Shown here in pieces: positions 3,598 through 60,947 of a stretch of 64,000 nt of DNA. The stretch comes from a virus. Each line of letters begins with the position of its first letter. Position 1 is the first letter of the stretch. The position numbers and the translations under genes are program-made. Where the stretch lies: IMG/VR virus record IMGVR_UViG_3300037010_001227, positions 124,001 to 188,000 of that record. The stretch is one strand, 5' to 3'. The notes under the pieces are model-generated. The model saw nothing but the letters and a program-made list of their open reading frames with translations, did not search any database and had not been told where the DNA came from.

Positions 3598-4074
3598 TTG
3601 GTTAGAACTCGACCCTTCGATATTAATAAACTTAAAGTTCATCATACAGCTAAGTTTCATCGGCTGAAACAAAAGCAAAGAAACATTAGGTTTAATGTGT
3701 GGAAACGAAAGTTGTTTCGTGATTGGCAGAAAGAACATCAAGGTAAATTACCTGATCTATCAGTAATTCCAGACAACTGTGATTACTGTTACACTTGCAC
3801 TGATGAAGTTGATAGAGTAATTGATTTTGAAGGAATACCATATACCTTGTATAAATACAAGATGTGTGATTATTACTATAAGATTGAAATACCAGAAGCT
3901 GAACGTGAAAGTCATGATGGAATAGTTGCTTGTGGACAAACTTACATCGGTGGTTGTCATCTACTAAAGAAAACAGATGATGATTTCAAAGGATGGGGTT
4001 TGTTGTGGGATGGATGTAAAGAATGCTCTCTTAAAATGCACAAAGATGTCTCTGGAGAATACGATGAGAGATGA
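3598..4074 (+). CDS. Hypothetical Cys-rich protein, 158 aa
   Basis: I use TTG 3598 with AGGAA upstream. The first 45 residues are strongly basic and helical (HRLKQKQRNIRFNVWKRKLF). The rest has scattered CxxC pairs (CDYCYTC near 61-67, CKEC near 144), probably for zinc. A nucleic-acid-binding role is an inference. Its 3' end overlaps the next gene. Confidence 0.6.
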   Translation: MVRTRPFDINKLKVHHTAKFHRLKQKQRNIRFNVWKRKLFRDWQKEHQGKLPDLSVIPDNCDYCYTCTDEVDRVIDFEGIPYTLYKYKMCDYYYKIEIPEAERESHDGIVACGQTYIGGCHLLKKTDDDFKGWGLLWDGCKECSLKMHKDVSGEYDER

Positions 4075-4225
4075 AAACACTTTGATTGATTCTGGATATG
4101 GTTATGGTTATTGTCCAGAATGTCATGCTCCTGGAATTAAAAGAGAACGAAAACCTGATGGAAATGATATGTGTGTAAATTGGCATGTGTATCCTTCAAC
4201 AACGGCTCTAAAGGAGTCCAAATGA
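4064..4225 (+). CDS. 53-residue zinc-binding protein
   Basis: The ATG at 4064 lies 7 bases after TGGAG and overlaps the previous gene by 11 bases; a longer frame upstream is a shadow of that gene. YCPECHAPG (residues 16-24) with a later DMC and NWH resembles small zinc-finger proteins common in phages. Function unknown. Confidence 0.6.
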   Translation: MRDENTLIDSGYGYGYCPECHAPGIKRERKPDGNDMCVNWHVYPSTTALKESK

Positions 4226-4557
4226 CAGACCCAATAAATCTTCACCTTGCATTAACTGCTTGTTTCTGTTCTATCAAGCAGATTTTGAGTTATAACACTG
4301 ATGACATTGTGAGTAATGCTACCAGTGAGAAGTTTGATTCAGACACAAGAAAGGCTATCTCTTATATAAGAGATAAAACTTCTTCGATTGAATATATTTC
4401 TAGAGAAACTGTAGTTTTCTTACTCAGAAAATATTACAGAGAAGAACATAACAGTGAAGGTGAAAACTTCGCAAAAGTCTTTGATTGCATGTTTACAAAG
4501 CTTAGTGTGGATACTTTTTACTGGGGATGTGTAGAATTAAGTAGTGAAGCTCAATAG
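4222..4557 (+). CDS. Hypothetical protein, 111 aa
   Basis: AAGGAG at 4211-4216 fixes the ATG at 4222, overlapping the previous stop by 4 bases. The helical soluble protein has no known family. Its stop TAG 4555-4557 lies inside the 5' part of tRNA-Ile, an unusual 10-base overlap of CDS and tRNA. Confidence 0.65.
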   Translation: MTDPINLHLALTACFCSIKQILSYNTDDIVSNATSEKFDSDTRKAISYIRDKTSSIEYISRETVVFLLRKYYREEHNSEGENFAKVFDCMFTKLSVDTFYWGCVELSSEAQ

Positions 4558-4623
4558 CTCAGTTGGTAGAGCAAGGCACTTATAACGCCTAGGTCGATGG
4601 TTCAATCCCATCTTGAGCTACCA
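4548..4623 (+). tRNA. tRNA-Ile (anticodon UAU)
   Basis: Acceptor AGCTCAA pairs with TTGAGCT; there is a D arm GCTC/GAGC, anticodon loop CTTATAA, T loop TTCAATC, and an encoded CCA. The anticodon stem has one A-C mismatch next to the loop. It reads the AUA codon, rare in many hosts. The 5' end overlaps the preceding CDS. Confidence 0.9.
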
Positions 4624-4671
4624 GAGTAATCTCCTAATAGTAGTAGAAAAGTTACACTTCCTGGAGGAGTC

Positions 4672-4956
4672 ATGTCTAAGGTAGTTAATATCTCAGTTGA
4701 CTATATTAAGCTCAACATTAAAGTTGGCTTTGAGATTACCTCGGACGATCAAATCAAGTTGGCAGTTGTTTCCCCAGTTAAACATTGTTGTAGTAGAAAG
4801 TTAACATCTTTAATGGATGTGGCTAAACATCTCCATTTAGAAGAGAAAGATCACCCAACGTTTATCAGTTTGTTTGATTCTGATAGATCAGAAGGAACAC
4901 ATTTCGTAGTTAAAGCACCTCGAATTGAATGTGACTATAATCATATGGGGAGTTAA
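4672..4956 (+). CDS. Hypothetical protein, 94 aa
   Basis: CTGGAGGA precedes the ATG. The soluble mixed alpha/beta protein has no motif I recognise. It is followed at once by the next ORF. Confidence 0.65.
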   Translation: MSKVVNISVDYIKLNIKVGFEITSDDQIKLAVVSPVKHCCSRKLTSLMDVAKHLHLEEKDHPTFISLFDSDRSEGTHFVVKAPRIECDYNHMGS

Positions 4957-4957
4957 G

Positions 4958-5188
4958 ATGATGGAACCAGAAGAATATAAAGATAGTAGATGCACAACAA
5001 TTGAAATTACTTCTGTCCAATACAGTGATTTCATGGTTGATTATTACAAAAAGAAAAAAGAGTATCCAACTTATAGAGTTGGACAACATTTCTGTAACAT
5101 GTTCCATATGCATAATCCTGAACTGTTTTATAAACGTGACTTTCAGGATTGTTTAAAATATATCCTAGAGAACTATGTTGTTGATTAG
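4958..5188 (+). CDS. Hypothetical protein, 76 aa
   Basis: GGGGAG 7 bases upstream marks the ATG at 4958, one base after the previous stop; a longer frame would start inside the previous gene. The protein is Tyr- and Lys-rich and acidic at the N-terminus. Unknown. Confidence 0.6.
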   Translation: MMEPEEYKDSRCTTIEITSVQYSDFMVDYYKKKKEYPTYRVGQHFCNMFHMHNPELFYKRDFQDCLKYILENYVVD

Positions 5189-5198
5189 TTTCTTTATG

Positions 5199-5229
5199 GC
5201 AACGATTACACACTTAGTCTAACCGTTGC
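5199..5229 (+). other. Intercistronic hairpin, TGCAATAAG type
   Basis: A 6-bp stem, GCAACG with CGTTGC, is flanked by TCTTTATG and AATAAG. The downstream TGCAATAAG is shared with the hairpin at 10933. Confidence 0.4.
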
Positions 5230-5274
5230 AATAAGCAAACTGAATTAACTTTATACTTTAGAAAGGTTATTCTA

Positions 5275-5433
5275 ATGGCTACGGCCCAAAAATTCATTGA
5301 TCGTAATTTCTCTTTGTCTGAACATGATGATTTTCAGGTAAACATCCTACCCTTAGTTAATGATGGTAATGAACCTGTAGAATTGTTAGATGAAGATCAA
5401 AATTTAATCGGATGGGTATTGAAAAGGCTATAA
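5275..5433 (+). CDS. 52-residue hypothetical protein
   Basis: GAAAGG precedes the ATG. The small acidic protein reads like a single beta-rich domain (PVELLDEDQNLIGWVLKRL at the end). No family recognised. It is 13 bases before the next gene, which carries CTGGAGGG. Confidence 0.55.
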   Translation: MATAQKFIDRNFSLSEHDDFQVNILPLVNDGNEPVELLDEDQNLIGWVLKRL

Positions 5434-5446
5434 CCTGGAGGGTTAT

Positions 5447-5725
5447 ATGAATTTCTATGTGGTATCGTTAGTCAATGGAGAGTCTGGTTCGGAAATATTA
5501 GGGACCACAACAGATTCTTTAGATGATGCAGAAAGTGTTGCTATTGACTTTTTGTCTGAATACTTGATTGAAGGTGATACAATCAAGAAAATAAAAAGAG
5601 ATTCAGACTTTTCTTCAGACTCAGATATAGAACAGATTTATACAATTCAACATTATGATTTCACATACCATTTTATGGAAGTAAGAGTATTAAAAAGAAA
5701 TCATAATAAAAATCTTTACAGTTGA
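5447..5725 (+). CDS. Hypothetical protein, 92 aa
   Basis: CTGGAGGG precedes the ATG. The N-terminus (MNFYVVSLVNGESGSEILGT) looks like a short beta hairpin, followed by an acidic helix and strands. It resembles small phage proteins of unknown role. The next 133 bases (5726-5858) have no gene until the next ribosome site. Confidence 0.6.
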   Translation: MNFYVVSLVNGESGSEILGTTTDSLDDAESVAIDFLSEYLIEGDTIKKIKRDSDFSSDSDIEQIYTIQHYDFTYHFMEVRVLKRNHNKNLYS

Positions 5726-5858
5726 AAGTCTTTTCAATACAGATAATAACTGTAGTTGTTAGAACAAAAACATAATAGTTTCGATGTAGAACATAATCAA
5801 CTTTAATGATAACATCATTTAAATGACGGTGCTTTCAGTAGTCCTGAAAGGAGGGCAT

Positions 5859-6203
5859 ATGAATACCTTAGCAAGAGAGTTAGCTATGGCATTTCTAGAA
5901 AATAGGCCCTTGAAATTGAAGGATACAATTGTAACCATGACTGAATATGTTCTTGGTGGAACAACAATTGCTAAATGGGATAGTTCATCTCTATTGGTTA
6001 TTTTTCCACAAACAAATATTAAATTAGTTAAAGACCGAGTAAATCCTATCTTAGAAGGATACGGTTGTGGTATTTCAATCGAATCTTTCCAACAAAGACT
6101 ATACTTCGTAGACAACTCTGACAAACAAAGAAGTTTAAGAGAAGTCGAATTTGAAGTGTGGTATTTGATAAAAAAAGATGGATTTATCTTAAGAAACTAT
6201 TAA
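5859..6203 (+). CDS. Hypothetical protein, 114 aa
   Basis: AAAGGAGG lies 6-7 bases before the ATG at 5859; a longer frame from 5823 is less likely. The mixed alpha/beta protein has no catalytic motif visible. It ends 37 bases before tRNA-Leu. Confidence 0.65.
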   Translation: MNTLARELAMAFLENRPLKLKDTIVTMTEYVLGGTTIAKWDSSSLLVIFPQTNIKLVKDRVNPILEGYGCGISIESFQQRLYFVDNSDKQRSLREVEFEVWYLIKKDGFILRNY

Positions 6204-6240
6204 ATAGTCCGATATAAGTATATGAAGGTGTTTCAAACTA

Positions 6241-6327
6241 CCCAGCATGGCGTAATTGGTAGCCGCAGAAGTCTTAAAAACTTCTTCCTGTAAAGGAGTC
6301 CCGATTCGACTTCGGGTGCTGGGACCA
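6241..6327 (+). tRNA. tRNA-Leu (anticodon UAA)
   Basis: This is a class II tRNA: acceptor CCCAGCA with TGCTGGG, anticodon loop CTTAAAA on stem GAAGT/ACTTC, a long variable arm, T loop ATTCGAC, and an encoded CCA. It reads UUA. The minus-strand HNH gene ends 7 bases downstream. Confidence 0.92.
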
Positions 6328-6333
6328 GTAGAA

Positions 6334-7044
6334 TTAGGAGTGTCTTTTGATATGCTGTCTTATAGCATTATCAGACACTCCTAATTCTTTTCCTAGTTTA
6401 GTATAGCCAACAAGCTCTAAACGAGTTAATAATTCTGGTAGTGATGGCCAGGTAATTTTGGTTGCTATTAATTTACCAGCACATCGTTTACATCTAGTGG
6501 AGTTTCTAGCAATTTTAGTATTACAGTCCAAGCAATAGTTAATAATTGGCTCTTTTATTAGAGATGTTTTAACTTTAGCAAGATTTTTATTCTTCTTATT
6601 CTTACCACGATATGTATCTGTGAGAGCATGGCAATTAGGACACAGTAAAGTAAGATTGCTTAGAGCATTATTTAGATGGTTTCCATCTATATGTTCTAAC
6701 TCAAGAGGAATAGGATTATTTAACCACGTTGTTTGATTACAGTTATAACATTTGTAATCAAGCAAGTTTTCTTTTATTAATCGTAATTTTAGTTTGTGTG
6801 ATTGTATATAATGGTCATTAGATAAATATTCGTGAATATCGCGTTTCGGTTTAAATGTTTTTCCTTTATTAGAACCTTTTCCTAATAAATGTGTTGTATC
6901 TAATTGTAGTCGTGTAATAGCAGCGGCAAGGCAGTCGTAATTTCCTCCTGCTTGTGCCAATCCCAACTTACCTAATATCTCACGTTTAGATACAGATGTT
7001 TTGACAGCTTCGATAAGTTCTTGATCCGTATATCTTCGAGTCAT
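6334..7044 (-). CDS. HNH homing-type endonuclease, intact
   Basis: This 236-residue protein has an N-terminal helix-turn-helix-like region opening RRYTDQELIEAV, a zinc-stapled HNH core (CYNC at 99-102, LEHIDGNH around 116-123, LCPNCH at 134-139) and a C-terminal CLDC/CKRC zinc finger with a final recognition-helix motif. Such enzymes cut DNA and spread by repair. The ATG at 7044 has TGGAG on the minus strand. It is the only complete endonuclease of its kind here, convergent to tRNA-Leu and embedded between + strand genes. The other copies are broken. Confidence 0.9.
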   Translation of the reverse strand: MTRRYTDQELIEAVKTSVSKREILGKLGLAQAGGNYDCLAAAITRLQLDTTHLLGKGSNKGKTFKPKRDIHEYLSNDHYIQSHKLKLRLIKENLLDYKCYNCNQTTWLNNPIPLELEHIDGNHLNNALSNLTLLCPNCHALTDTYRGKNKKNKNLAKVKTSLIKEPIINYCLDCNTKIARNSTRCKRCAGKLIATKITWPSLPELLTRLELVGYTKLGKELGVSDNAIRQHIKRHS

Positions 7045-7117
7045 ATGCTCTCCATATAATTTAATTACGGTAAAGACTTTATCCAAACTGTCAGTATATT
7101 TACCGTAGGAGATTATC

Positions 7118-22576: not shown

Positions 22577-23461
22577 ATGCGAAACATTCGATTGTTCGGT
22601 AAAATAATTCCATTGAAAGACAGGGATTGTGGACTGAATGGAAAGCCTGGTGAATTAAGGGAACCTTCAGTCAATATCTTTGTAAAGATCACTGATAATT
22701 GTAATGCAGCTTGTCCGTTCTGTGTCTTTACAAATGCTGCATATACTCGTTTTAATAACATCAAGTTCATTAACACTCTTGATACAATCAGGAGTCAAAT
22801 AAAAATATCTAAAATCTCTTTTACTGGTGGAGAACCTACTCTCCAGCGAGATACTTTAGATTTGGTTCTTTGGGGAATCCATAATCTTGATCCTAAAATC
22901 AATGTCACAGTAAATACAAATGGCTTTGATTTAGAAGCATTTCCTTACGATTACATCAATAATATGTCTCTCAGTAAGCATCATTACGATCCAGGTATTG
23001 ATGATGTAATCTTTGGACATAAAACATATAAGAGCGAAGAAATCAATAAAATGATTGCTTCTATTCCAAAAGAAAAATTACAGCTTTCTTGCAGTGTAGC
23101 TAAGAGTGGACTTTATAAGACAATTGATTCAACAGATGAAATCTATAAGTATCTTACTTTCTATGCTGGATTGGGAGTTTATGCTTTTGGTTTCAATTCT
23201 TTAATGGCTGTAAATGATTACTGTAAGAGTCATTATTTGAATACCCTTGAAATGTTGGACAAACTTCCTAATACAAGAAAGTCAATGTCTTGGTTACGTC
23301 CTGACAAGGGTTGTATGTGTAATAATTATGTTACAGCAACTCCTTCTGGATTAGTTACCAGTTATGCTAAGTGTAATAAAGACATTGCAGCTTGTGATAG
23401 CATTCTTGTGTTTGATGTAGACAAACTCATGCTTGGCTTCGGTGGAGAAGTCATTTATTAG
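22577..23461 (+). CDS. Radical SAM enzyme 1
   Basis: The 294-residue protein has the [4Fe-4S] motif CNAACPFC (C42, C46, C49), the SAM-binding FTGGEPT near residue 80 and a partial TIM barrel. Near the C-terminus GCMCNNY and CNKDIAAC provide extra Cys, but there is no full SPASM domain. It would cut S-adenosylmethionine to form a radical; the substrate is unknown. It starts directly at the previous stop. Confidence 0.85.
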   Translation: MRNIRLFGKIIPLKDRDCGLNGKPGELREPSVNIFVKITDNCNAACPFCVFTNAAYTRFNNIKFINTLDTIRSQIKISKISFTGGEPTLQRDTLDLVLWGIHNLDPKINVTVNTNGFDLEAFPYDYINNMSLSKHHYDPGIDDVIFGHKTYKSEEINKMIASIPKEKLQLSCSVAKSGLYKTIDSTDEIYKYLTFYAGLGVYAFGFNSLMAVNDYCKSHYLNTLEMLDKLPNTRKSMSWLRPDKGCMCNNYVTATPSGLVTSYAKCNKDIAACDSILVFDVDKLMLGFGGEVIY

Positions 23462-23866: not shown

Positions 23867-24150
23867 TGTGCTGAGTATTAAGTAGTCATAGATGGTCTGA
23901 TTGGAGTCCAAAGAAAGAAATTCTAATTCAGACCGTAAGAGAAGAGTTTCCTCTTGTGTTTAATATTATCGTAGTAAGAGTAACACAAGAAAGAACTTGT
24001 CTAGTTTATAATGAAATACAAAGTAGATTAGTTGAAACTTATGAAAAACCAAAAAATATATTGGTTTTTATAAACAACAGAGATAATAATGGATTTGAAA
24101 GATATCGGATTTTATACTCTTTCAGACGAACGGGCACGAAGTGCCTCTAA
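23866..24150 (+). pseudogene. Small gene with TGA as codon 3
   Basis: ATG 23866 is coupled to the preceding stop. After MC and TGA 23872 the frame is open for 92 codons (SHRWSDWSPKKEILIQTV and so on). An internal ATG at 23956 could give a shorter product. Its end overlaps radical SAM enzyme 2 by 62 bases. Confidence 0.45.
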
Positions 24151-25060
24151 AACCTCACCTTTGATGCGCTGTGAATTGATTTTAACTGATCAGTGCAATT
24201 TCAAATGTCCTTATTGCCGTGGTCCTAAAGCTGGATTTGATGGTATTATGCCATTAGATCGAGCCAAATCTTATGTAGATTGGTGGGCAGGACAAGGACT
24301 TAAAAATATCAGATTCTCTGGTGGTGAGCCTACAGCTTATTACCAGTTACTTGATTTAGTGAAATTCACTAAGGAATCTGGTATTGAACGGATCGCTATT
24401 TCAACCAATGGCTCTGCTAAGTCAAGCTACTATATTGATCTTATTGAGGCCGGTGTAAACGATATATCCATATCCTTCGACGCCTGCTGTGCAGCTTTTG
24501 GTGACAAGATGGCTGGAGGTATCCCTGGAGCTTGGGAAAGAGTGGTTCAGAACGTCAAGATACTTTCCCAGCTTACTTATGTGACTCTTGGCATCGTTGT
24601 CACAGAAGAAACAGTAGATCAGTTGGAAGATGTGGTTAAGTTAGGTGCCGAGTTAGGTGCCCAGGATCTTCGTATTATTTCAGCAGCTCAATATAACGAG
24701 CTTCTAACTTCAGTAGAATTGCTACCTTCCACTTTAGTAGATAAATACCCTATTCTCAAGTATAGGGTGAATAATATTAAATCAGGGAGGAATGTAAGAG
24801 GTATCCAAAAAACAGATTCACATAAATGTCCTCTTGTATTAGATGATATGCTTATTATTGGAGATAGTCATTTTCCATGCGTTATTTATGCACGGGAGCA
24901 TGGAGAACCTATTGGTAAAGTTACTTCCAATACACGCGAAGATAGATATCAGTGGTATCTAAAACATGATACACATCTTGATAGTATCTGCAAGATTAAC
25001 TGTTTAGATGTCTGCGTTGATTACTCCAACAAATACATGGAGTTTCACGACACGGAATGA
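24089..25060 (+). CDS. Radical SAM enzyme 2
   Basis: The 323-residue protein has CNFKCPYC (C36, C40, C43), FSGGEPT near residue 77, and a C-terminal Cys group (HKCPL, HFPCV, SICKINCLDVC) that could hold an auxiliary cluster. MoaA/NifB-type proteins with such tails modify peptides or small molecules; no partner is evident beside it. It is unlike enzyme 1 outside the core motifs, so the two are not recent duplicates. Confidence 0.85.
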   Translation: MDLKDIGFYTLSDERARSASKTSPLMRCELILTDQCNFKCPYCRGPKAGFDGIMPLDRAKSYVDWWAGQGLKNIRFSGGEPTAYYQLLDLVKFTKESGIERIAISTNGSAKSSYYIDLIEAGVNDISISFDACCAAFGDKMAGGIPGAWERVVQNVKILSQLTYVTLGIVVTEETVDQLEDVVKLGAELGAQDLRIISAAQYNELLTSVELLPSTLVDKYPILKYRVNNIKSGRNVRGIQKTDSHKCPLVLDDMLIIGDSHFPCVIYAREHGEPIGKVTSNTREDRYQWYLKHDTHLDSICKINCLDVCVDYSNKYMEFHDTE

Positions 25061-43639: not shown

Positions 43640-43989
43640 CGTATTAAATGAAAGTTGAAAGGTGCATTGAAAGAGTCACTATAGGTTACAAAAAAAATCG
43701 TGGTTCTTAGAATTGCCTAATTTTACTGCTATTATGACTCCATGGAAATCTGAATTAGTTTAGGCAGGAAAATTTGATCAAGTATATCTTGATCAAGTAA
43801 GAGATGATAGTCTTCCAGGTATGCCTCGAAGGAGTTATAGGAAACTCATTTAATGGTGAATATATGTTCAAATATAAGTGTCAGAGATGGTATGATGCTT
43901 TGAAAGAACATTGTAGTGAAAATCAAGGTATTTACAATGTCCTAAAAATAGGAGGATTAAATGAAGACAAGAACAGGCTTTGTAAGTAA
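43640..43989 (+). pseudogene. Decayed gene upstream of the GFVSN cluster
   Basis: Fragments read FTAIMTPWKSELV, TAG, AGKFDQVYLDQVRDDSLPGM, then in another frame YMFKYKCQRWYDALKEHC. This is one former protein of roughly 100 residues. The last fragment overlaps the first cluster gene by 29 bases. Confidence 0.5.
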
Positions 43990-44599
43990 TAGTTCTTCAA
44001 GTTCTTTCATTCTTGACTTTGGAAAGTTTATAACAAAAGCTGAGGATCTGTATCCTTTTATTACAATTCCAAATGAAGATCAAGAACTATGGAGAGGTTC
44101 TGATTATGTAGAACCAACTATAGAACGAGTAGCAGAATACATGTTTGCTGAAATGAAGCTGGTTAATAAACCTAGGCTTTTAAAACTCTTGGAACAAGAG
44201 TTTGATCCAGAACAGTTTATTGAGACTGAAGAAGAAAAAGACAGGTATGCATGGGCTTGTGATGCTAGATGGAATGCTAGAGATGAACTCCTCGCCCCAT
44301 TACTTGATAAATTTGGTCTTAACGGTGAATATGAAATTACTAGAGGACCAATTATAAATCTTCAGATGTTCAACCTCGCGTATGGTCCAATTCAACTTCA
44401 ACTAAATAATATTTTAAAAGAAGCTAATGAAGTTAAAGCTATGATATTAGATAAATACATTCCAATAGCATTAGCTAAAATTGGCGATTCTGAACATATT
44501 TACGAAGCAAAATTTGAAGACCATGACGTGATAGGTAGCATGCTTGAACATGATGGACTATTAGATAAGTTCACTATCATGAGATTTAGTCACCACTAG
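43961..44599 (+). CDS. GFVSNSSSSSF-family protein 1, 212 aa
   Basis: ATAGGAGGA before the ATG, the strongest ribosome site in the cluster. The N-terminus MKTRTGFVSNSSSSSF is followed by ILDFGKF and a long acidic, helical body unlike the other members. The constant part reads as a leader or tag with a variable cargo. It is the largest member and the first of eight. Its stop overlaps the next GTG. Confidence 0.8.
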   Translation: MKTRTGFVSNSSSSSFILDFGKFITKAEDLYPFITIPNEDQELWRGSDYVEPTIERVAEYMFAEMKLVNKPRLLKLLEQEFDPEQFIETEEEKDRYAWACDARWNARDELLAPLLDKFGLNGEYEITRGPIINLQMFNLAYGPIQLQLNNILKEANEVKAMILDKYIPIALAKIGDSEHIYEAKFEDHDVIGSMLEHDGLLDKFTIMRFSHH

Positions 44600-44799
44600 T
44601 GAAAACAAGAACTGGTTTTGTGAGCAATTCAAGCTCAAGTAGTTTTGTTATTACTACAAAAGAACCATTAAGTAAACAACACCTTTTGGAGTTATTTAAA
44701 GTTCCTGTAGAGTCTCCTTTATACTATTTTGTTGAAGAAATGGCAGAATGGTTTGAGCGATATTCTGAACAGGTTACAGTAAAACATGAGCATTGTTAA
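44599..44799 (+). CDS. GFVSNSSSSSF-family protein 2, 66 aa, possibly truncated
   Basis: GTG 44599 overlaps the previous stop and has no ribosome site of its own, so it depends on coupling. MKTRTGFVSNSSSSSF is identical to protein 1 but uses different codons at most positions. The body is short and its end overlaps the next ORF, which looks like its missing C-terminal half in another frame. Confidence 0.7.
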   Translation: MKTRTGFVSNSSSSSFVITTKEPLSKQHLLELFKVPVESPLYYFVEEMAEWFERYSEQVTVKHEHC

Positions 44800-44926
44800 C
44801 AAGAAGTTGATTTACGTTGGTTCTGCTTCAGATGATGCTTATGAAGAAATTGAATTATCTATTTGTTCAATGACTATTAATCATATTAGTGCCGATTTTT
44901 CTATTAAGAAAGATGGTAACTACTAA
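44786..44926 (+). CDS. 46-residue ORF, likely C-terminal part of protein 2
   Basis: LIYVGSASDDAYEEIELSIC and the following acidic strand would complete a family body of about 110 residues if a single frameshift near 44780 were corrected. As it stands it has its own ATG and overlaps the next gene (TAATG). Confidence 0.5.
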   Translation: MSIVNKKLIYVGSASDDAYEEIELSICSMTINHISADFSIKKDGNY

Positions 44927-45339
44927 TGAAGATTCGAAAAGGTTTCGTAAGTAACAGTTCAAGTTCAAGTTTCTGTATTTACGGAACTAGCGTTGATTCA
45001 CTAAGTGAAATTACTGGAGTATCAGTACAAGAGATTAATGAGAAACGAAAACAAAAGTTTCTAGAGGGTTACGGGAAGCAGCATCCAGAGCTAGTTCCAC
45101 AATCTGATGAAGAATGGCAAGAATACTTTGATGAAGATTGTGACTATGCTGATTATGTCAGCGGAACTGGCTTAGAAATCTACAGTAAGGATGGTTACGA
45201 GTATTACATTGGTAAGTCTTGGCATCTTATTGGAGATGATGAGACTGGTAAAGAGTTTAAAGCTGCTGTTGAGGCTAAGGTTAAAACTCTTATTCCTAAA
45301 GCTAAATGTGAAACTTACTTTGAGGAGTATTACTGCTAA
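44926..45339 (+). CDS. GFVSNSSSSSF-family protein 3, 137 aa
   Basis: MKIRKGFVSNSSSSSFCIYG starts the chain. The C-terminal third holds GKSWHLIGDDETGKEFK, also found in protein 4. Acidic overall (pI low by composition), soluble, with Cys after the motif. Coupled on both sides by TAATG. Confidence 0.8.
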   Translation: MKIRKGFVSNSSSSSFCIYGTSVDSLSEITGVSVQEINEKRKQKFLEGYGKQHPELVPQSDEEWQEYFDEDCDYADYVSGTGLEIYSKDGYEYYIGKSWHLIGDDETGKEFKAAVEAKVKTLIPKAKCETYFEEYYC

Positions 45340-45800
45340 TGAAAACCCGTCTTGGTTTTGTCTCGAACTCCAGTAGCTCTTCATTTTGTATCTATGGTAT
45401 TCAGTTTGATTCTTATGACGAAGTTCTTCGTAGTTTACAGAAAAGTGATAAAGAGTTTCTACATGGTTTCTTTGTACAGTTCAACAATAAATATAAACGT
45501 GAATTAGAAGATAATGAAATTGCAGAAGTTACTACAATTGATGAATTAATCAATGCTATAAATGAGCTTGGTTACGATATGTGGGAGTTTTGCGATGATT
45601 TGTTTAAAGATGACAAAATAATACGTGTTCACACAGGTAGTGAATATAATGCTGGTATGGTTTCCATTGGAAGAGAATGGCGCTTTATTGGAGATAAAGA
45701 GACTGGAGAAGAGTTTAAGGAAAGCATTCGTAAACGATTAGAGTATTATTTTGGTAAGAAGCTCAAACTTCAAACTATTGAAGAATCTTTTCGGTGCTAA
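45339..45800 (+). CDS. GFVSNSSSSSF-family protein 4, 153 aa
   Basis: MKTRLGFVSNSSSSSFCIYG, then a body with GREWRFIGDKETGEEFK near residue 118. Thus 3 and 4 are close paralogues that share both leader and body. Serine codons here (TCG, TCC, AGT, AGC, TCT, TCA) differ from all other copies, showing selection on the peptide. Confidence 0.8.
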   Translation: MKTRLGFVSNSSSSSFCIYGIQFDSYDEVLRSLQKSDKEFLHGFFVQFNNKYKRELEDNEIAEVTTIDELINAINELGYDMWEFCDDLFKDDKIIRVHTGSEYNAGMVSIGREWRFIGDKETGEEFKESIRKRLEYYFGKKLKLQTIEESFRC

Positions 45801-46163
45801 ATGAAAACTCGTTCAGGTTTCGTAAGTAATAGTTCAAGTTCAAGTTTCGTAATTCTTGGTGTGAAAGTAGTTGAAGGTTCCAAAGAGTATAACCACATTA
45901 AGGAACTTTTCTATGATGTTCCAGCAGATGAGGATAATGGAGTGAGTCCTTGGGAATGGGAACTACCTAACAATGTAAGTTATATTACCACTGGTGATAA
46001 CAATGATCAGACTTACTTCGGTGAGTATCTTGCCCAAGGTGAGTATACGGAATTTGAAGAGTTCAGCTTTAATGATCTAAAGAGAAAATCTAAGGAATTA
46101 GCTGATCTTCTTGAAGTTCCTGAGTCTGACGTAAGACTTGTAGTAGGAACTGAGTATATCTAG
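45801..46163 (+). CDS. GFVSNSSSSSF-family protein 5, 120 aa
   Basis: It begins directly after the previous stop without a ribosome site. MKTRSGFVSNSSSSSFVILG is followed by a different acidic body (DVPADEDNGVSPWEWELP) ending in a Glu/Leu helix. No Cys in the body. Confidence 0.8.
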   Translation: MKTRSGFVSNSSSSSFVILGVKVVEGSKEYNHIKELFYDVPADEDNGVSPWEWELPNNVSYITTGDNNDQTYFGEYLAQGEYTEFEEFSFNDLKRKSKELADLLEVPESDVRLVVGTEYI

Positions 46164-46210
46164 AGCAATTAGCATTAGTAATTATTAGTAACTTTATTTT
46201 GAGGTTGCTA

Positions 46211-46591
46211 ATGAAAGTGAGAACAGGATTTGTAAGCAACAGTTCAAGTTCTAGCTTTTGTATACTAGGCAGATCTGGAGATCTTTACAAATTTAAGGAC
46301 TATATGACTTTTACATTCCCAAATTCTTTTAACGTTAACGACTTAGAAGATGAGGGTGATATTTTAAATGAGATTGTATCGTTAGTAGAAGATATGACTG
46401 GTCTTGATTGTCTGTATGGTTTTGAAAATGAACAATGCTATATTGGTTACTCTTTTTCAAATAGTAATCTTTATGATCGATCTGTAAATGAACTGATCAA
46501 AGAAGTTGATAACAAGTTTAAGTTACTAAACATTCCACAAGAAGTCTTTGACATTGCTACAACACTTCATTATGGCGAGCTTTACCACTAA
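46211..46591 (+). CDS. GFVSNSSSSSF-family protein 6, 126 aa
   Basis: I start at ATG 46211 (GAGG upstream) so that MKVRTGFVSNSSSSSFCILG is N-terminal as in all others; an upstream ATG would add four residues. Body with YGFENEQCYIGYSF, resembling the strand region of 3, 4 and 7. It ends 27 bases before the radical SAM gene. Confidence 0.8.
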   Translation: MKVRTGFVSNSSSSSFCILGRSGDLYKFKDYMTFTFPNSFNVNDLEDEGDILNEIVSLVEDMTGLDCLYGFENEQCYIGYSFSNSNLYDRSVNELIKEVDNKFKLLNIPQEVFDIATTLHYGELYH

Positions 46592-46618
46592 ACAAAACTA
46601 GGAAACCTAGGAGATAGA

Positions 46619-47701
46619 ATGCTTCATTTTACATCAAAAGAATGGCGGTCAGTTCGTTCAGAAAATTACAATTATGATTTCAATACTGTCACAGGTTTCT
46701 TTGCTCGTTGGGGAGCTACAAAAGAAGAAGATCCCATCGTAGCTCCAGCACCTGAAATCTTGGACCTGGAAGTTAGTTATGGTGGTAAATGTTTTGGTAA
46801 CTGTGCCTTTTGTTATAAAGGGAACGGTGGTGATCAGCCTGTAGTTAATATGACTTTAGATCAGTTCAAAGTTATATTTTCTAAAATGCCAAAAACTTTG
46901 ACACAAATTGCTTTCGGTATTATGAATATCTCTACAAATCCTGATTTATTTTCTATGATGGAATACGCAAGAGAGAATGGTGTGGTTCCAAATTACACCT
47001 GTCATGGCCTCGACGTTACTCCTGAAATTGCCAAACGAACTTCAGAGCTTTGTGGGGCGGTCGCAGTATCAGTTTATTCCTCAGAAGCCTCTTATAACGC
47101 GATTAAGATGTTTACTGATGCGGGCATGAAGCAAGTTAATATTCACTTTATGTTAAGTGAAGAAACTTATGAAAGAGCGTTCACTATTTTACATGATCGT
47201 CTAACTGACCCAAGACTTGCTGAAATGAACGCGATTGTATTCCTTGGTTACAAACCAAAGGGTAGAAATGCTGGTGGTTTTCATCCAGTATCTACTGAGA
47301 AATACAAGAAGTTAATTGAATATTGTAATCGTAACAATATCAGTTATGGTTTTGATTCTTGTTCAGCTCCTGTAGTTCTAAAATGCATTGAGAACTCTGA
47401 AGATTATAAGAGGATTTCACAGTTAGTAGAACCTTGTGAATCTTCTTGTTTCAGTTCTTATATTAATGCAGATGGTATTTTCTACGCCTGTTCATTTTGC
47501 GAGGGCGAAGGTATGTGGAAAGAAGGCATTGATGTTTTAAATTGCAATGATTTTGTTAAGGATGTTTGGCAACATCCTAAAACAGTAGCATTTCGAGAAA
47601 TTTTACATCAGAGTACAAAATCTTGCGGTGCGTGCAAAAGTCAATCTATTTGTAGACATTGTCCAATGTTTCCTGTAACAAATTGCCACAATGAGCTATA
47701 G
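46619..47701 (+). CDS. Radical SAM enzyme 3 with SPASM-like Cys-rich C-terminus
   Basis: The 360-residue enzyme has CFGNCAFC (C58, C62, C65) for the SAM cluster. The last 90 residues contain many Cys (CESSC, CSFC, CGAC, CRHC, then NCH), as in SPASM or twitch domains that hold extra [4Fe-4S] clusters. SPASM enzymes mostly modify ribosomal peptides (sactipeptides, PQQ, mycofactocin). No obvious peptide-recognition (PqqD-like) domain is fused. It lies inside the GFVSN cluster, which makes those proteins its likely substrates (inference). Confidence 0.85.
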   Translation: MLHFTSKEWRSVRSENYNYDFNTVTGFFARWGATKEEDPIVAPAPEILDLEVSYGGKCFGNCAFCYKGNGGDQPVVNMTLDQFKVIFSKMPKTLTQIAFGIMNISTNPDLFSMMEYARENGVVPNYTCHGLDVTPEIAKRTSELCGAVAVSVYSSEASYNAIKMFTDAGMKQVNIHFMLSEETYERAFTILHDRLTDPRLAEMNAIVFLGYKPKGRNAGGFHPVSTEKYKKLIEYCNRNNISYGFDSCSAPVVLKCIENSEDYKRISQLVEPCESSCFSSYINADGIFYACSFCEGEGMWKEGIDVLNCNDFVKDVWQHPKTVAFREILHQSTKSCGACKSQSICRHCPMFPVTNCHNEL

Positions 47702-47713
47702 TAGTTGAGTGTT

Positions 47714-47753
47714 CCATGAAAGAGCATATACGGTTAATTATGCTCTTTCATGG
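47714..47753 (+). other. 15-bp hairpin after the radical SAM gene
   Basis: CCATGAAAGAGCATA pairs with TATGCTCTTTCATGG across 10 bases. No T tract, and the right arm overlaps the GGAG of the next (broken) gene. It may be a processing site or block that ribosome site. Confidence 0.55.
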
Positions 47754-47761
47754 AGACTTGA

Positions 47762-48317
47762 ATGCTTTGCAAACAATGTAATACAGAGTTTATACAAAAT
47801 AAACCACATCAAGTATATTGTTCAGAAACGTGCAGAAATTCTTACTGGGGTCATACATAAACAGTATGAAAAAAAATAAAAATAAAATAGCTAAAAAGAA
47901 TAATAATGATGAATATAGAAAGTATCAAAAAGAATTAACAAAACAACCATATAGAAAACAAGCAAGAAATGACTATTTAAAAGTAAACGAAAATCTGACA
48001 TAGTATTTAAATTAAAACACTCTATAAACGATAGATTACGTCACGAATTTTCTAATTTTAGTGTAGTTGAGTTAGAAAGTTATTTAGGATATTCTATTTT
48101 AGATTTATCTAATTATTTATTCCAAACAGATGAAGAAAAAGAAGAATATCTTGCTGGTAATTTAGAACTTGACCATATTATACCTTATAATTGGTATATA
48201 GTTTTAGCGTTAGGTGATGGCGAGTTTAAAAAATGTTGGTCCTTTGAAAATTTACGATTATTATCAAGTATAGACAATAAACAAAGAAGTAAAAAAATTG
48301 ATTGTGTTTTTAGTTAA
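47762..48317 (+). pseudogene. HNH endonuclease with zinc-ribbon N-terminus, broken
   Basis: MLCKQCNTEF...YCSETCRNSYW (zinc ribbon), a basic linker, then LELDHIIPYNWY and CWSFENLRLLSSIDNKQRSKK (HNH core) read in three successive frames. It is a + strand remnant and interrupts the GFVSN cluster between the radical SAM gene and protein 7. Confidence 0.7.
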
Positions 48318-48355
48318 ACAACAAAAGATAAGTCATCTTTTACCTATAGGAGCTA

Positions 48356-48690
48356 ATGAAATACGGAAATTGTTCTAAATACTTCGGAATTAGTGTTATG
48401 TAAACCAAAAAAGAAAAATAGAATTTGATTCTTTTGAGTATAGTGTTATAGAAGCTACTGAAAATATAGCTTATCATAGAATGAAATTTATGTTTCAACC
48501 AAGCGGTAAAACTACTATAGTCTTATCCTGTTTTGGACAAAGTATTTTAGAACATAAATTTGAAACACCAATTTCTGTTATAATATATTGGCCTTATAAT
48601 GGAGTAGGTATATCATCAGAAACTTTTGCCCAAAAAGATATACCAGGAAGAAGAACAGTATATTTTACATCTTGTCATAAGGAGTTATAA
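48356..48690 (+). pseudogene. Hypothetical gene with one frameshift
   Basis: TAGGAG before ATG 48356, reading MKYGNCSKYFGISV; after one frame change near 48400 it continues NQKRKIEFDSFEYSVIEATE to TAA 48690. The whole would be about 110 residues, beta-rich. The part from 48481 is still open with its own ATG and might be made alone. Confidence 0.5.
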
Positions 48691-48693
48691 ATA

Positions 48694-49068
48694 ATGAAAA
48701 TTCGAAAAGGTTTCGTAAGTAATAGTTCTTCTTGTAGTTTTACTCTTTACGGAGTATATTTAGATCCAGTAGAAGAAGCAGTTTATGCTAATCTACAAGA
48801 TGATATTAAAGCAAGATGTTTAATTGAAGCAGAGAAACGTGGAGGTGATCTAGATTTAGAAGTATTTATAAAAGTTATGTGGGAAGAATTTAAAATAGAA
48901 GCTACTTGGGGTCAAGATCACTATACTCTCTATTTTGGTTTCAGTATTAACGACATGAAAGATGATGAAACTAAAATACAATTTTATGATCGGATTGAAA
49001 AGTTTTTTCAAAAGATTTTTAAAGAAGTAAGCTGTGATTGGCATTCAGAAGCATGGTATGACTCTTGA
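48694..49068 (+). CDS. GFVSNSSSSSF-family protein 7, 124 aa
   Basis: AAGGAG before the ATG. MKIRKGFVSNSSSCSFTLYG carries the only change in the Ser run, Ser to Cys. The body has YTLYFGFSINDMKDDE, matching protein 6, and a helical end. It follows the broken HNH gene. Confidence 0.8.
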   Translation: MKIRKGFVSNSSSCSFTLYGVYLDPVEEAVYANLQDDIKARCLIEAEKRGGDLDLEVFIKVMWEEFKIEATWGQDHYTLYFGFSINDMKDDETKIQFYDRIEKFFQKIFKEVSCDWHSEAWYDS

Positions 49069-49081
49069 GTAATTAAGTAGT

Positions 49082-49225
49082 ATGACAACTAAAATATGTA
49101 GTAGTAAATGTAAAGATTTAAAGATTTAACAGATTTTTATTCAAACTCTTATAGATAGTAAAGATTATCATACTAATGTTCATAATAATGGAGCATATAA
49201 ACAATAAATAATGAATTTACTATAG
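49082..49225 (+). pseudogene. Remnant of a zinc/HNH-type protein
   Basis: MTTKICSSKCKDL, then LTDFYSNSYR and KDYHTN in other frames, like the zinc-finger N-terminus of phage HNH or endonuclease VII-type proteins. Stops in all frames; the rest of the gap to 49259 is AT-rich and empty. Confidence 0.4.
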
Positions 49226-49259
49226 TTTTAAATAATTATATAACTACTTTGGATAATTG

Positions 49260-49520
49260 ATGAAAACAAGAGCAGGTTTTGTAAGTAACAGTTCTAGTTC
49301 CAGCTTTGTGTTGGATAAAGATCATCTTTCACCAGAACAAATTGATCAGATTAAGAGACATACCAAACTTGCACAAGATTTTGGTATAGAACATTGGATG
49401 ATAGAAGAACGAGAGCATATAATCCTGCTAGAAACTTGGATGGATAACTTTAACATGTCTGAGTTCCTGGAACATATTAAGGTTCCAACAGAAGCCATAT
49501 TACGTCACAACAGAGACTAG
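49260..49520 (+). CDS. GFVSNSSSSSF-family protein 8, 86 aa
   Basis: ATG 49260 (preceded by an in-frame TTG). MKTRAGFVSNSSSSSFVLDK, then a short acidic helical body (LSPEQIDQIKRHTKLAQDFG). The last and second-smallest member. It is followed 2 bases later by the next gene. Confidence 0.8.
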   Translation: MKTRAGFVSNSSSSSFVLDKDHLSPEQIDQIKRHTKLAQDFGIEHWMIEEREHIILLETWMDNFNMSEFLEHIKVPTEAILRHNRD

Positions 49521-50661: not shown

Positions 50662-50907
50662 ATGACAAACAAAAAGAAACTGGGATTATGTCTTATCCTT
50701 GTCTTAATTTCTACTGGTGGAAAGTATGTAACTGCTGGATATATTATTTACCAGTTAGTTTTACATGGGTTTGCTGAATCTTTTATTAGTTACTACTTGT
50801 TACTAATACTTCTGTTGTTCGCATGTTTTAAACTTCAGAAATCATTAGAGGAATTGGCACTAAGTTATATTACTATCGAACCGGATAGCAATGAAGAAAA
50901 ACAGTGA
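50662..50907 (+). CDS. Two-pass membrane protein, 81 aa
   Basis: Lys-rich start, then two hydrophobic helices (residues 7-30 and 43-57) and an acidic tail: N-in, C-in topology. It precedes and overlaps thyX by GTGA. Unknown function; holin-like size but no lysis context. Confidence 0.6.
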   Translation: MTNKKKLGLCLILVLISTGGKYVTAGYIIYQLVLHGFAESFISYYLLLILLLFACFKLQKSLEELALSYITIEPDSNEEKQ

Positions 50908-51599
50908 TAACTTTACAAGATCTAACAAAAGAGTTTAAAAAAGATTCTTGGATTTGGGAAACCAACGACAAAGACAAAGTTGAAGTAATATTACCATCAG
51001 TAGAAATTATTGATTCTATGGATGGTGTTAGTATTCTTAAGAAATTAGAAAAGATTATTAGAGTAGCATACAAGAGTGAAGATAAAATCACTGATACTTC
51101 TTATGAGAAGATGCTGAATGTTATTCTAGCAAATAATCATCTATCTACTTTAGAACATGAACATATCACTTTCAAGATAGTGACAAATCGTGGTGTAACT
51201 CATGAATTGGTTAGGCATAGACTAGCTAATTATACACAAGAATCTACACGATATGTTAACTACAGTAAGAAAGGTGGCCAGGTAATTTATCCTGCTTGGA
51301 TGGTTGGTAAGTCTGACAAGGATAAGATGTTCTGGTATGCAAGAATGTGTAGTGCTCTTATGGGATACAATCAAGCTATTACTGAATTTGGTTGGAAGCC
51401 ACAGGAGGCACGAGGAATTCTCCCGCATGACGTTAAGACTGAAATCTATTCTACTATGAATTTGCGAGAACTACGGCATGTTGATAGTCTTCGTGGAGAA
51501 GGTGCTAACGCGGCCCATCCAGATATTAGAATAGTTATTTCTGAACTGATGTCACAACTACAATCAAAAATTCCTATTATTTTTGATGAGAAAGTATGA
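50904..51599 (+). CDS. thyX: Flavin-dependent thymidylate synthase ThyX
   Basis: The 231-residue protein has the ThyX signature RHRLANYTQESTRY (residues 102-115; RHR-x7-S), with HEHITF upstream for FAD and the late ERKR-like Arg/Glu region. ThyX converts dUMP to dTMP using methylene-THF, NADPH and FAD. This couples to the dNMP kinase and perhaps the deaminase-like enzyme, and to NAD(P) supply from PnuC/NadR. GTG start; the end overlaps the next gene. Confidence 0.95.
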   Translation: MITLQDLTKEFKKDSWIWETNDKDKVEVILPSVEIIDSMDGVSILKKLEKIIRVAYKSEDKITDTSYEKMLNVILANNHLSTLEHEHITFKIVTNRGVTHELVRHRLANYTQESTRYVNYSKKGGQVIYPAWMVGKSDKDKMFWYARMCSALMGYNQAITEFGWKPQEARGILPHDVKTEIYSTMNLRELRHVDSLRGEGANAAHPDIRIVISELMSQLQSKIPIIFDEKV

Positions 51600-57299: not shown

Positions 57300-58604
57300 A
57301 TGGCTGACGAAAAGATTGCTAAGGTTGATTATTTCACTTCTGCTTGCCGAATGACCTTAGCACAAGTTCATAAGTTCTTCACAGATGTTCTTCTAAAAAT
57401 GGATCCCGCAGATGCTCCTGCTGTTGTCCTTTGGGGCGCACCTGGAATTGCTAAGACTGCCATCATTGAACAGGTTTTTGGAGGTCATGAATTTGGTCTG
57501 GCTACTGTAATTGCTAGTCAGATTGGTCCTCTAGATTCTAACGGACTACCTCACATCGAAAAGCAGAAGATTACCGATGCTTCCGGTAACATTGGTGAGA
57601 CCGATATTACCACTTTTACTCCTACTAACATTTGGGGTCGTGGTAAGAAGAATCTTTTCCTTGACGAACTAAATAACGCACAGCCTTCTACTATGGCTGC
57701 ACTACAGAACCTTCTTTCTTCAAGAATGATGGGTGGTGATAATTTCAACGGAGTTTACATTGTAGCTGCTTGTAATCCTCCTAGCACAAATAGTCTTGCT
57801 AACGATCTGAACCATCCTTCTGTTTCTCGATGCCTTCACATCATTGTAGACTACACTCTTAATGATTTCATAAACTATGCTATGGAATCTGGTAAGATTC
57901 ATCCTGCTATCGTAGCATTCCATAAGAAGACTTCTGGACAGTATCTACAGGCAAAGTGGGAAGTTGTTAAGAATCATGGTTATCAGGTTCCTGAACCTAG
58001 CGCAAATGAGCCTTTCCCCTGTCCTCGAACTTGGACTCTTGCTTCTAATTTCCTTAATGCAATGGCTAAGACTGGAAAGATGGAATATGCTTTCATACAG
58101 CCTATTGTTGAAGGTTGCGTAGGTGTTGCAGCAGCTTCTCAGTTCTCTACTACTTATGCTTATATGAATCGCCTTCCTGATATTGAAGCTGTATTCGATG
58201 GTAAGCTAACTTCCAAGGGAATTGATATGAAGGGTGAAGTAGCAGTAGAATATCTAACTGCATTCTCAGCGATTAATCTTGCTGCAATGAAGATCGATGA
58301 AGCAAAGAGTTCCGGTATAAAGTGCATTATGCCAAAAGCTGATGACGATAAGAAGACTCCTGCTTGGCATCTCCTTGCTGGTCTACATCGTCTAATTCAG
58401 TTCGTTTCCACTGTTTGCTCTCCTGAACTAGGAACTATGGTTATGTCTAACGTAACTGATCGTATTCGCATTCTTCCTTCTTCTTTCCTAACTGCGATTT
58501 ATAGCGATATCGACGTTAAGAACGGTCTAACTCGGGCAAAGACTTTCTCTAAGACCGCTCTGACTAATTCTGAGAATCGTAACGCTATTGCAGGTTCTTT
58601 CTAA
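57300..58604 (+). CDS. MoxR-type AAA+ ATPase
   Basis: The 434-residue protein has Walker A GAPGIAKT (46-53), Walker B LFLDELNNA (119-127) and the sensor-1 Asn in VAACNPP; the helix-2 insert between them fits the MoxR group. MoxR ATPases work with VWA-domain proteins to load metals or remodel proteins. The VWA partner lies 1 kb downstream. Codons are richer in C and G than nearby genes, suggesting high expression. Confidence 0.85.
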   Translation: MADEKIAKVDYFTSACRMTLAQVHKFFTDVLLKMDPADAPAVVLWGAPGIAKTAIIEQVFGGHEFGLATVIASQIGPLDSNGLPHIEKQKITDASGNIGETDITTFTPTNIWGRGKKNLFLDELNNAQPSTMAALQNLLSSRMMGGDNFNGVYIVAACNPPSTNSLANDLNHPSVSRCLHIIVDYTLNDFINYAMESGKIHPAIVAFHKKTSGQYLQAKWEVVKNHGYQVPEPSANEPFPCPRTWTLASNFLNAMAKTGKMEYAFIQPIVEGCVGVAAASQFSTTYAYMNRLPDIEAVFDGKLTSKGIDMKGEVAVEYLTAFSAINLAAMKIDEAKSSGIKCIMPKADDDKKTPAWHLLAGLHRLIQFVSTVCSPELGTMVMSNVTDRIRILPSSFLTAIYSDIDVKNGLTRAKTFSKTALTNSENRNAIAGSF

Positions 58605-59627: not shown

Positions 59628-60947
59628 ATGGATTTCACAGAGTATATAAAATTACATTGGGACGACGTAACTATCCCAGTTGTAAATATTTCGAGCCTGA
59701 GGCAATTCCTGATTCGGAAGTGTCCATTTTATACTCAGGTTCTACAGTTAGTTAATGTAGAGTTTATTGATAATGCAAAGATTCCTGCTTGTGGTTATAC
59801 TAATGGCCACAAGATTTATCTCAATCCTAGGATTTATGCAATTTCTGAAATGTATTCCAAGGAGAATAATATGCCTTGGTTTAAAACCCCTGAAATGGGT
59901 TTTGCATTTATTCTAATGCATGAAGCTGGACACCTTGTTTTTGATAGTTTTGGAAGACAGGGTGGAAGAGATGCAAGAATGTGGAACTCTGCAACTGATT
60001 ATCAGATTAATCAGTTCGTAGTTAAACTTCTTAAAGAATCTCAAGTGTTCTCTACTCCACAGTCTTATCAGGAATTTCTTACTGTTATCATGAAGAACTT
60101 CCTATTAGATCCTGCAAAATATGAGAAGATGAATGCTGAAATGACTTATGATGATATATATAAGATCAAAATAGGTTCTGGTAACGGTGATGTTCCTAGT
60201 AATGGCACATTAGCTGGTGACCTGGTTGAGCCAGAAGATGATATGACTGATCAGGAACGTATGGATAGAGAGATTGTTAAATCTGAACTTAAGGACTACG
60301 CTACTAAGAACGCTTCTAAGTTAGCAGGTGTTGGTAGCTGTTTCCGAGAGTTTGAATTCTTACAAGAGCCTCCCAAGGTTAATTTGAAAATGGTTCTGCG
60401 TCAGATTACTGATAAAGAGGTAGCGGACGATTGGGGATGGCATAATCGTGGTTCTCGTATGGATCATTTGCTCGCAGAAGGTTCAAGACTTCCTTCTGTA
60501 GTTCCTTGTAATCCTGACATAGTGAGAAAGGTGTTCTTTGTTCTTGATTCATCTGGTAGTATGTCAGATGAACAGCTAAATGATGCTCTCAACATCGTTA
60601 AAGACTGCTTAGGGAAGTACACTAGACAGCCTATTTATCTTATTATCCACACAAGTGAAATTGTGTTTAGTAAGGATATTAAGAGCCACAACGATGTAAT
60701 TAAGAAGTTTTCTGGTGGAACTGCTTTTAGACCTGTGCTTGAAGAAATCGCACGAGTTCGTAAGAAAGAACATATTGAGCCTAGCGTAGTAATTTGGCTA
60801 ACAGATTACTATGGCGAAATGCGGCCACAAGCAGAAGACCTTCGTAAGGCTGTAAAGAATCCATTTAAGCAGTTTAAATGGATTATCTCTGGCAGTCGAG
60901 AAGTTCCTGATTGCGGAGCCTATTATTACATTGATGATGTTAATTAA
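59628..60947 (+). CDS. VWA-domain protein with metallopeptidase-like N-terminus
   Basis: Residues 90-110 carry a zinc HExxH motif (FILMHEAGHLVFD, H98 and H102), then a helical linker, then a von Willebrand A domain with the MIDAS DSSGS near 306-310 and later Thr and Asp. This matches the phage and bacterial partner of MoxR ATPases, in which a metal-binding domain precedes VWA. The pair may assemble or activate a protein complex. TTGGAG precedes the ATG. Confidence 0.85.
   Translation: MDFTEYIKLHWDDVTIPVVNISSLRQFLIRKCPFYTQVLQLVNVEFIDNAKIPACGYTNGHKIYLNPRIYAISEMYSKENNMPWFKTPEMGFAFILMHEAGHLVFDSFGRQGGRDARMWNSATDYQINQFVVKLLKESQVFSTPQSYQEFLTVIMKNFLLDPAKYEKMNAEMTYDDIYKIKIGSGNGDVPSNGTLAGDLVEPEDDMTDQERMDREIVKSELKDYATKNASKLAGVGSCFREFEFLQEPPKVNLKMVLRQITDKEVADDWGWHNRGSRMDHLLAEGSRLPSVVPCNPDIVRKVFFVLDSSGSMSDEQLNDALNIVKDCLGKYTRQPIYLIIHTSEIVFSKDIKSHNDVIKKFSGGTAFRPVLEEIARVRKKEHIEPSVVIWLTDYYGEMRPQAEDLRKAVKNPFKQFKWIISGSREVPDCGAYYYIDDVN

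Follow-up and report, generated by a model that had tools for sequence, protein, structure and literature searches.

The closest described relatives of the system reported here come from different fields. The radical S-adenosylmethionine (SAM) enzyme anSME has as its target an internal CxPxR/SxAxR-type motif, and the internal proteins of phage T4 carry a capsid-targeting sequence, a short constant N-terminus present on many small and divergent phage proteins. In the vWA-MoxR FtsH ternary conflict systems a radical SAM enzyme was predicted to modify a separately encoded 'peptide-effector' (Kaur et al. 2020, PMC7159879). The locus studied here lies in a stretch of 64,000 bases (the window, bases 124001-188000 of the 213,189-base phage record IMGVR_UViG_3300037010_001227). 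Eight open reading frames (ORFs) between positions 43961 and 49520, all on the + strand, each start with MK[TIV]RxGFVSNSSS[SC]SF, hereafter the tag, and a radical SAM/SPASM enzyme is encoded among them. Within the 213-kb record the tag pattern was found 8 times, always inside this array, and a reversed control pattern gave 0 occurrences. We propose that tag and enzyme are likely to constitute a two-part protein-marking system, in which the enzyme would recognise the N-terminal tag and modify it.

A first-pass annotation of this DNA, made from the letters alone, had reported the eight tagged ORFs and a SPASM-type radical SAM gene after the sixth copy, all of which were recovered at the same positions. 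It had also regarded tag and enzyme as one system and had proposed a test of the enrichment of radical SAM genes near the family; this enrichment proved overwhelming in phages, in cellular loci and in Clostridia. The counts from the tag scans given below are among the matches listed, and many of the contigs and metagenome-assembled genomes are incomplete. PHROG 7293, the family of the window enzyme, was present on 41 of 50 phage contigs selected by the tag alone. In the 41 enzyme-bearing phage loci (the window and 40 contigs) a tag lay within 10 kb of the enzyme in 37 and within 2 kb in 28, and in a placement test 17 of 27 phages had their nearest tag at most 2.5 kb away, where 1.7 would be expected (p=2.5e-15). 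Tags were found on the strand of the enzyme in 173 of 174 cases, the corresponding figure for other ORFs being 542/632. Tags were detected in all 44 re-scanned phage records positive for the enzyme; these were mostly selected by the tag, with three exceptions (two records retrieved through the enzyme, and that of the window itself). Records found through the enzyme were also tagged, namely three contigs (that of L138 included) and GAP161, which has two tagged proteins. Around the pair, within 10 kb, only the radical SAM and tagged genes recur widely in phages; no protease or exporter recurs beside it, and neither does a third, substrate-type gene. As to a control on random viral contigs, arbitrary 16-mers matched contigs whose small size precluded a comparison, and a sample of Clostridia genomes was used instead.

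The presence of the system on a phage, as first annotated, is correct, but it is not confined there, since bacteria, archaea and plasmids have it also. An enzyme gene was found within 8 kb at 94 of 118 bacterial or archaeal tag loci, and 14 of the 23 genomes without a local copy have one elsewhere. The 243 Clostridia genomes were taken regardless of either gene, the centre genome excepted; the tag was present in 4 of them, all positive for the enzyme, and the enzyme in 5, each with an adjacent tag once tag variants were allowed (Fisher p=1.7e-6 for co-occurrence, centre genome excluded). At the level of sequence, these distributions show that the tag is genetically coupled to this one radical SAM family in phages, bacteria and archaea. 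A radical SAM gene on a Photobacterium plasmid, selected by similarity (23% identity), had no tag nearby and was rejected as lying outside the family.

The tags themselves differ according to the enzyme that accompanies them. In a tree of the radical SAM enzymes, a window-like clade of 38 leaves (support 1.0) was set against the remaining 84. Tags of the window-like clade follow a GFVSN dialect, with Ser at residue 9 in 150 of 152 tags and usually Gly at residue 6, whereas those of the remaining enzymes follow a DFVTN dialect, with Thr at residue 9 in 126 of 131 tags and usually Asp at residue 6. Eight phages fall in the second group and use the DFVTN-type dialect, and two bacterial loci fall in the window-like clade and use the GFVSN type. 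Moreover, five body families (the body being what follows the tag) span both clades, the dialect switching with the enzyme. The dialect tracks the enzyme clade and not the body family, and this is the strongest argument for a tag that is read by the enzyme; because it does so across unrelated bodies, the constant N-terminus is very probably a recognition site, in agreement with the first annotation.

Sequence comparison also shows the tag to be a separable module, in a fixed N-terminal position, on dozens of otherwise unrelated bodies. In a scan of 120 stretches of viral contigs, the motif was at an identical distance from the Met in 284 of 296 motif-bearing ORFs, among the matches listed, and most of the remaining ones appear to begin at a GTG or TTG codon. 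A mismatch-tolerant scan identified R4, F7, V8, [ST]9, N10, S11 and S12 as near-invariant, positions 13-15 accepting T, A, C, E or M, and revealed few intermediates. Across genes each tag Ser is encoded by both AGY and TCN codons; this mixing implies that selection acts on the peptide and rules out a DNA-level reason for the conservation, such as recombination or a repeat. As for the bodies, 358 proteins (17 untagged ones included) trimmed of 16 residues gave 89 phmmer components, 57 of them singletons, and most of the larger families were mutually unrelated by hhalign. In the AlphaFold model of one bacterial tagged protein, residues 1-10 were disordered (pLDDT about 46), and the folded body began with a strand, S13-I20. 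The tagged proteins are not described by any curated family of NCBIfam or Pfam, and no description of the tag motif or of phage radical SAM tagging was found in the open-access papers searched; the paper on phage KP27 contains no proteomics. A tblastn search of isolate phages with a tagged protein gave nothing useful, the tag probably being masked as low complexity. Tagged proteins of about 470-660 amino acids (L228, L235, L258, L275, L299, L315) have a hydrophobic signal-like or membrane-spanning stretch after the tag, and it may be that tagged proteins are also exported or membrane-bound.

The window enzyme matched PHROG 7293 at E 2.7e-98 and has the CxxxCxxC motif at C58/C62/C65. Among 64 aligned relatives C58, C65, C248, C273, C291, C348, Y66, D246 and W317 are invariant and C62 is nearly so; the protein thus has the radical SAM core and the SPASM-like C-terminal Cys residues of the maturases of ribosomally synthesised and post-translationally modified peptides (RiPPs). 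The Radical_SAM/SPASM signal in Pfam was weak, PF13186 being below the cut-off in the window protein and above it in a bacterial relative, and no specific maturase family of NCBIfam matched the window protein above the cut-off. The nearest sequence profiles were SuiB and SkfB, and the folds nearest to the AlphaFold (AF2) model (pLDDT 93) were SkfB, CteB, SuiB, TigE and anSMEcpe. By secondary structure, residues 1-45 of the model form four short strands with no helix of at least 4 residues, and an N-domain like the RiPP recognition element (RRE) is absent. The phage record contains six PF04055 matches; apart from the PHROG 7293 gene, none lies closer to the tags than 19.5 kb, and the idea that any radical SAM enzyme would do was rejected. 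Two of these additional radical SAM genes are close together in the window, at 22577-23461 and 24089-25060 (PF04055 E 5e-11 and 2e-22), and three further PF04055 matches, one with internal stops, are found near base 3700-7050 of the record. Set against the 41 of 50 contigs selected by the tag, the enzyme is present in 173 of the 50,697 records of isolate phages, and almost all of these phages infect Enterobacteriaceae (e.g. GAP161 and KP27). RB16 and RB43 also carry it; the RB43 frame (L142, RB43 92715-93864) is apparently broken near the C-terminus, and the RB16 frame is intact.

In cells, the pair forms part of an operon that we identified at 16 loci from Firmicutes, Bacteroidota, a cyanobacterium, Verrucomicrobia and methanogens, in a fixed order on one strand: an NTPase, an untagged small protein (about 134 amino acids), a tagged protein (T, about 138 amino acids) and the radical SAM enzyme. 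The untagged protein is homologous to T. These four genes are also found on alphaproteobacterial plasmids, where the annotations read SMEK protein, hypothetical, hypothetical and radical SAM. The operon NTPases match Avs2 in PADLOC (E 1e-15 to 1e-32), with NACHT matches also, and their N-terminal domains vary (trypsin-like, PNP, SMEK, DUF4062 or ProA-like), so that the bacterial operon has a STAND/NACHT NTPase with a variable N-terminal effector. Since immune systems typically have STAND NTPases on which the effector domain is exchanged, a role in defence is suggested, and the four-gene operon looks like an undescribed defence system. Other cellular loci consist of the pair alone, with tagged bodies of 120 to 919 amino acids. 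An NTPase component was not found for the phage locus of the window, in keeping with the narrow set of genes that recur within 10 kb in phages. A connection between both settings is provided by phage body family 'i', which is homologous to the operon T protein (hhalign 96%, E 4e-9) and to which protein 2 of the window is linked (phmmer E 3e-4); the other phage body families tested by hhalign had no similarity to T.

We propose that the radical SAM/SPASM enzyme would recognise the disordered tag MKxRx[GD]FV[ST]NSS(S)3F on otherwise unrelated small proteins and would install one radical-chemistry modification, most likely within F7-S12, as a mark common to many proteins. That the enzyme modifies the tag is, in our opinion, highly probable. 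By analogy with the structural relatives SkfB, CteB, SuiB and anSME, the product may be an intra-tag crosslink or a side-chain oxidation, the two taken together being about as likely as not. The mark would control how the tagged proteins assemble or are recognised. In cells, T and its untagged paralogue would probably serve the STAND NTPase as sensor or regulator; in phages, the array would probably supply marked accessory proteins for infection, and the one phage family homologous to T could interfere with it. A more tentative idea, which we entertain with some reserve, is that of a widespread and undescribed marking system in which phages mark accessory or effector proteins and cells use the tag in the sensor of an immune operon. 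The same tag in phage proteins and in a cellular immune sensor would then imply one protein-modification code common to both sides of the phage-host conflict.

Some observations weigh against a marking system. The Cys residues of the C-terminal auxiliary cluster are not conserved throughout, a fold search with the T body found no PDB match, and shared ancestry or co-inheritance of whole loci may contribute to the match between dialect and enzyme. In RB43, RB16 and GAP161 the tags are about 20 kb from the enzyme gene. Furthermore, 9 of the 50 tag phages have no radical SAM gene detectable even with a wider profile, so that the tag may persist without a resident enzyme, unless these contigs lack part of the genome or the enzyme comes from the host. 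These nine phages would also fit a tag that is a localisation, packaging or assembly signal and not a substrate, the two genes merely travelling together, and an array of small phage proteins that share one short N-terminus has the anatomy of the T4 internal proteins. However, the pair is also present where there are no capsids, on bacterial chromosomes and plasmids and in archaea, the dialect co-varies with the enzyme, and the link is specific to one of the six PF04055 matches in the phage, all of which makes such a signal very improbable. The co-evolution of tag and enzyme could be explained by docking alone if the tagged proteins were adaptor or delivery subunits of the enzyme, partners or regulators whose unaltered tag docks while the substrate is a host or phage molecule; near-invariant N10, S11 and S12 suit binding as well as chemistry. 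Up to ten tagged bodies per enzyme would nevertheless be unusual for adaptors and no gene for a third, substrate-type partner recurs in phages, and we find this reading improbable.

The first annotation had named a RiPP-like or protein-tagging system. In favour of a RiPP design of leader and core, the SPASM radical SAM fold is nearest to the maturases SkfB, CteB and SuiB, and a constant N-terminus precedes a variable remainder. In a classical RiPP the tag would be only a docking leader, the variable body would be modified and the leader then cleaved. The bodies, however, are folded domains that belong to dozens of unrelated families, a number of them 300-900 residues long and the longest 919, with no common residue or spacing to be modified; no protease or exporter recurs beside the phage pair, and the enzyme model has no RRE-like N-domain. 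This design seems to us about as improbable as the adaptors. The homology of the tag-stripped family 'i' with the operon T protein also raises the idea that the phage tagged proteins are inhibitors or decoys directed at the STAND operon of the host, which shares their tag and enzyme. This is unlikely as a general account, though less so than the alternatives above, given that the T-like family is one among many phage body families and the others tested lack similarity to T. A marking system, with the tag as the site of modification, is the reading that we prefer.

Table 1. Genes of the tag array, in window coordinates, and loci of the four-gene NTPase operon
Feature	Position	Strand	Length (amino acids)	Description
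Tagged protein 1	43961..44599	+	212	Body family 'a' (C-terminus LEHxG...H); homologue of GAP161_111
Tagged protein 2	44599..44799	+	66	Begins at a GTG codon; N-terminal half of a body of the T-like (STAND-operon) family
46-amino-acid ORF	44786..44926	+	46	Other frame; matches C-terminal half of T-like body (by eye, phage rows)
Tagged protein 3	44926..45339	+	137	Body family 'b'
Tagged protein 4	45339..45800	+	153	Body family 'b'
Tagged protein 5	45801..46163	+	120	Body family 'h'
Tagged protein 6	46211..46591	+	126	Body unassigned among the larger families
Radical SAM/SPASM enzyme	46619..47701	+	360	PHROG 7293; downstream of sixth tagged copy
Tagged protein 7	48694..49068	+	124	Tag variant ...NSSSCSF; body family 'b'
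Tagged protein 8	49260..49520	+	86	Body family 'd'
Four-gene operon loci				L212, L216, L218, L221 (Sporomusa), L225, L248, L250, L251
Four-gene operon loci, continued				L252, L273, L283, L284, L296, L302, L316, L319
Four-gene operon plasmid loci				L484-L486 (L484, a Rhodobacter plasmid)

Several of the tagged genes in the window overlap by 1 base or have abutting ends (44599, 45339 and 45800/45801), an arrangement as in a translationally coupled operon. All eight copies exist, with the correction that the second looks like the N-terminal half of a single gene split by a frame change, the other half being the ORF of 46 amino acids (Table 1). PHROG 7397 matched the tag region of seven of the eight window proteins at E<=0.004 and of the eighth at 0.13; both this family and PHROG 7293 are annotated as of unknown function, and the window tagged proteins had no match above the cut-off among Pfam and NCBIfam profiles.

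Other genes were noticed around the tags. In Pseudotevenvirus genomes (L139, GAP161 66.0-70.4 kb; RB43 68.4-72.8 kb) a gene with a vWA domain lies between the two tagged genes, some 20 kb away from the enzyme. Downstream of the array, the window encodes a ThyX-like thymidylate synthase (50904-51599, identified by sequence motif), close relatives of which were not found in the viral scan, and a MoxR-vWA pair that consists of a MoxR-like AAA+ ATPase (57300-58604) and a DUF2201 vWA/metallopeptidase-like protein (59628-60947). These last two were rejected as parts of the system, since other phages do not have them linked to it; of 44 tag phages, 10 encode DUF2201, and away from the tags.

Several hundred proteins without annotation, together with the two uncharacterised PHROGs, can now be viewed as one testable enzyme-substrate system of phages, bacteria and archaea, in which the site of the putative radical modification is narrowed to about twelve residues. 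RB16 and RB43, which grow on E. coli, are phages in which modification of the tag can be sought. The work also brings to light a STAND-NTPase operon of four genes, hitherto undescribed, one arm of which is a radical SAM enzyme.

In comparison with the described systems, the RiPP maturases (SuiB, SkfB, CteB, PqqE and the mycofactocin enzyme MftC) resemble the enzyme in the radical SAM barrel with a SPASM-like Cys-rich end, in a gene that adjoins that of a short-motif protein, and in giving the best profile and fold matches. They differ in that here the putative substrates are many folded proteins with a constant N-terminal tag, and an RRE is lacking; nor do these putative substrates correspond to a RiPP precursor, with its leader and short released core, since behind the tag come long proteins or folded domains from families that are unrelated. 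The enzyme anSME is likewise a SPASM radical SAM protein acting on a Ser or Cys of a whole protein, and anSMEcpe is among the nearest folds, but its target motif does not occur in the tag. In contrast to the sequence of the T4 internal proteins, the tag is also found in cells, is coupled to a radical SAM enzyme and has no LxE cleavage motif. The vWA-MoxR FtsH systems share with this one the predicted modification of a separately encoded effector by a radical SAM enzyme in a setting of conflict; they are built on MoxR, vWA and FtsH, whereas here the MoxR and vWA genes are unlinked to the pair. Finally, AVAST/Avs2 and other STAND defence systems have in common with the cellular operon an Avs2-like NTPase with interchangeable N-terminal effector domains, and to the architecture of the matched Avs models, which have no radical SAM enzyme, the operon adds an untagged small protein, its tagged paralogue and a radical SAM enzyme.

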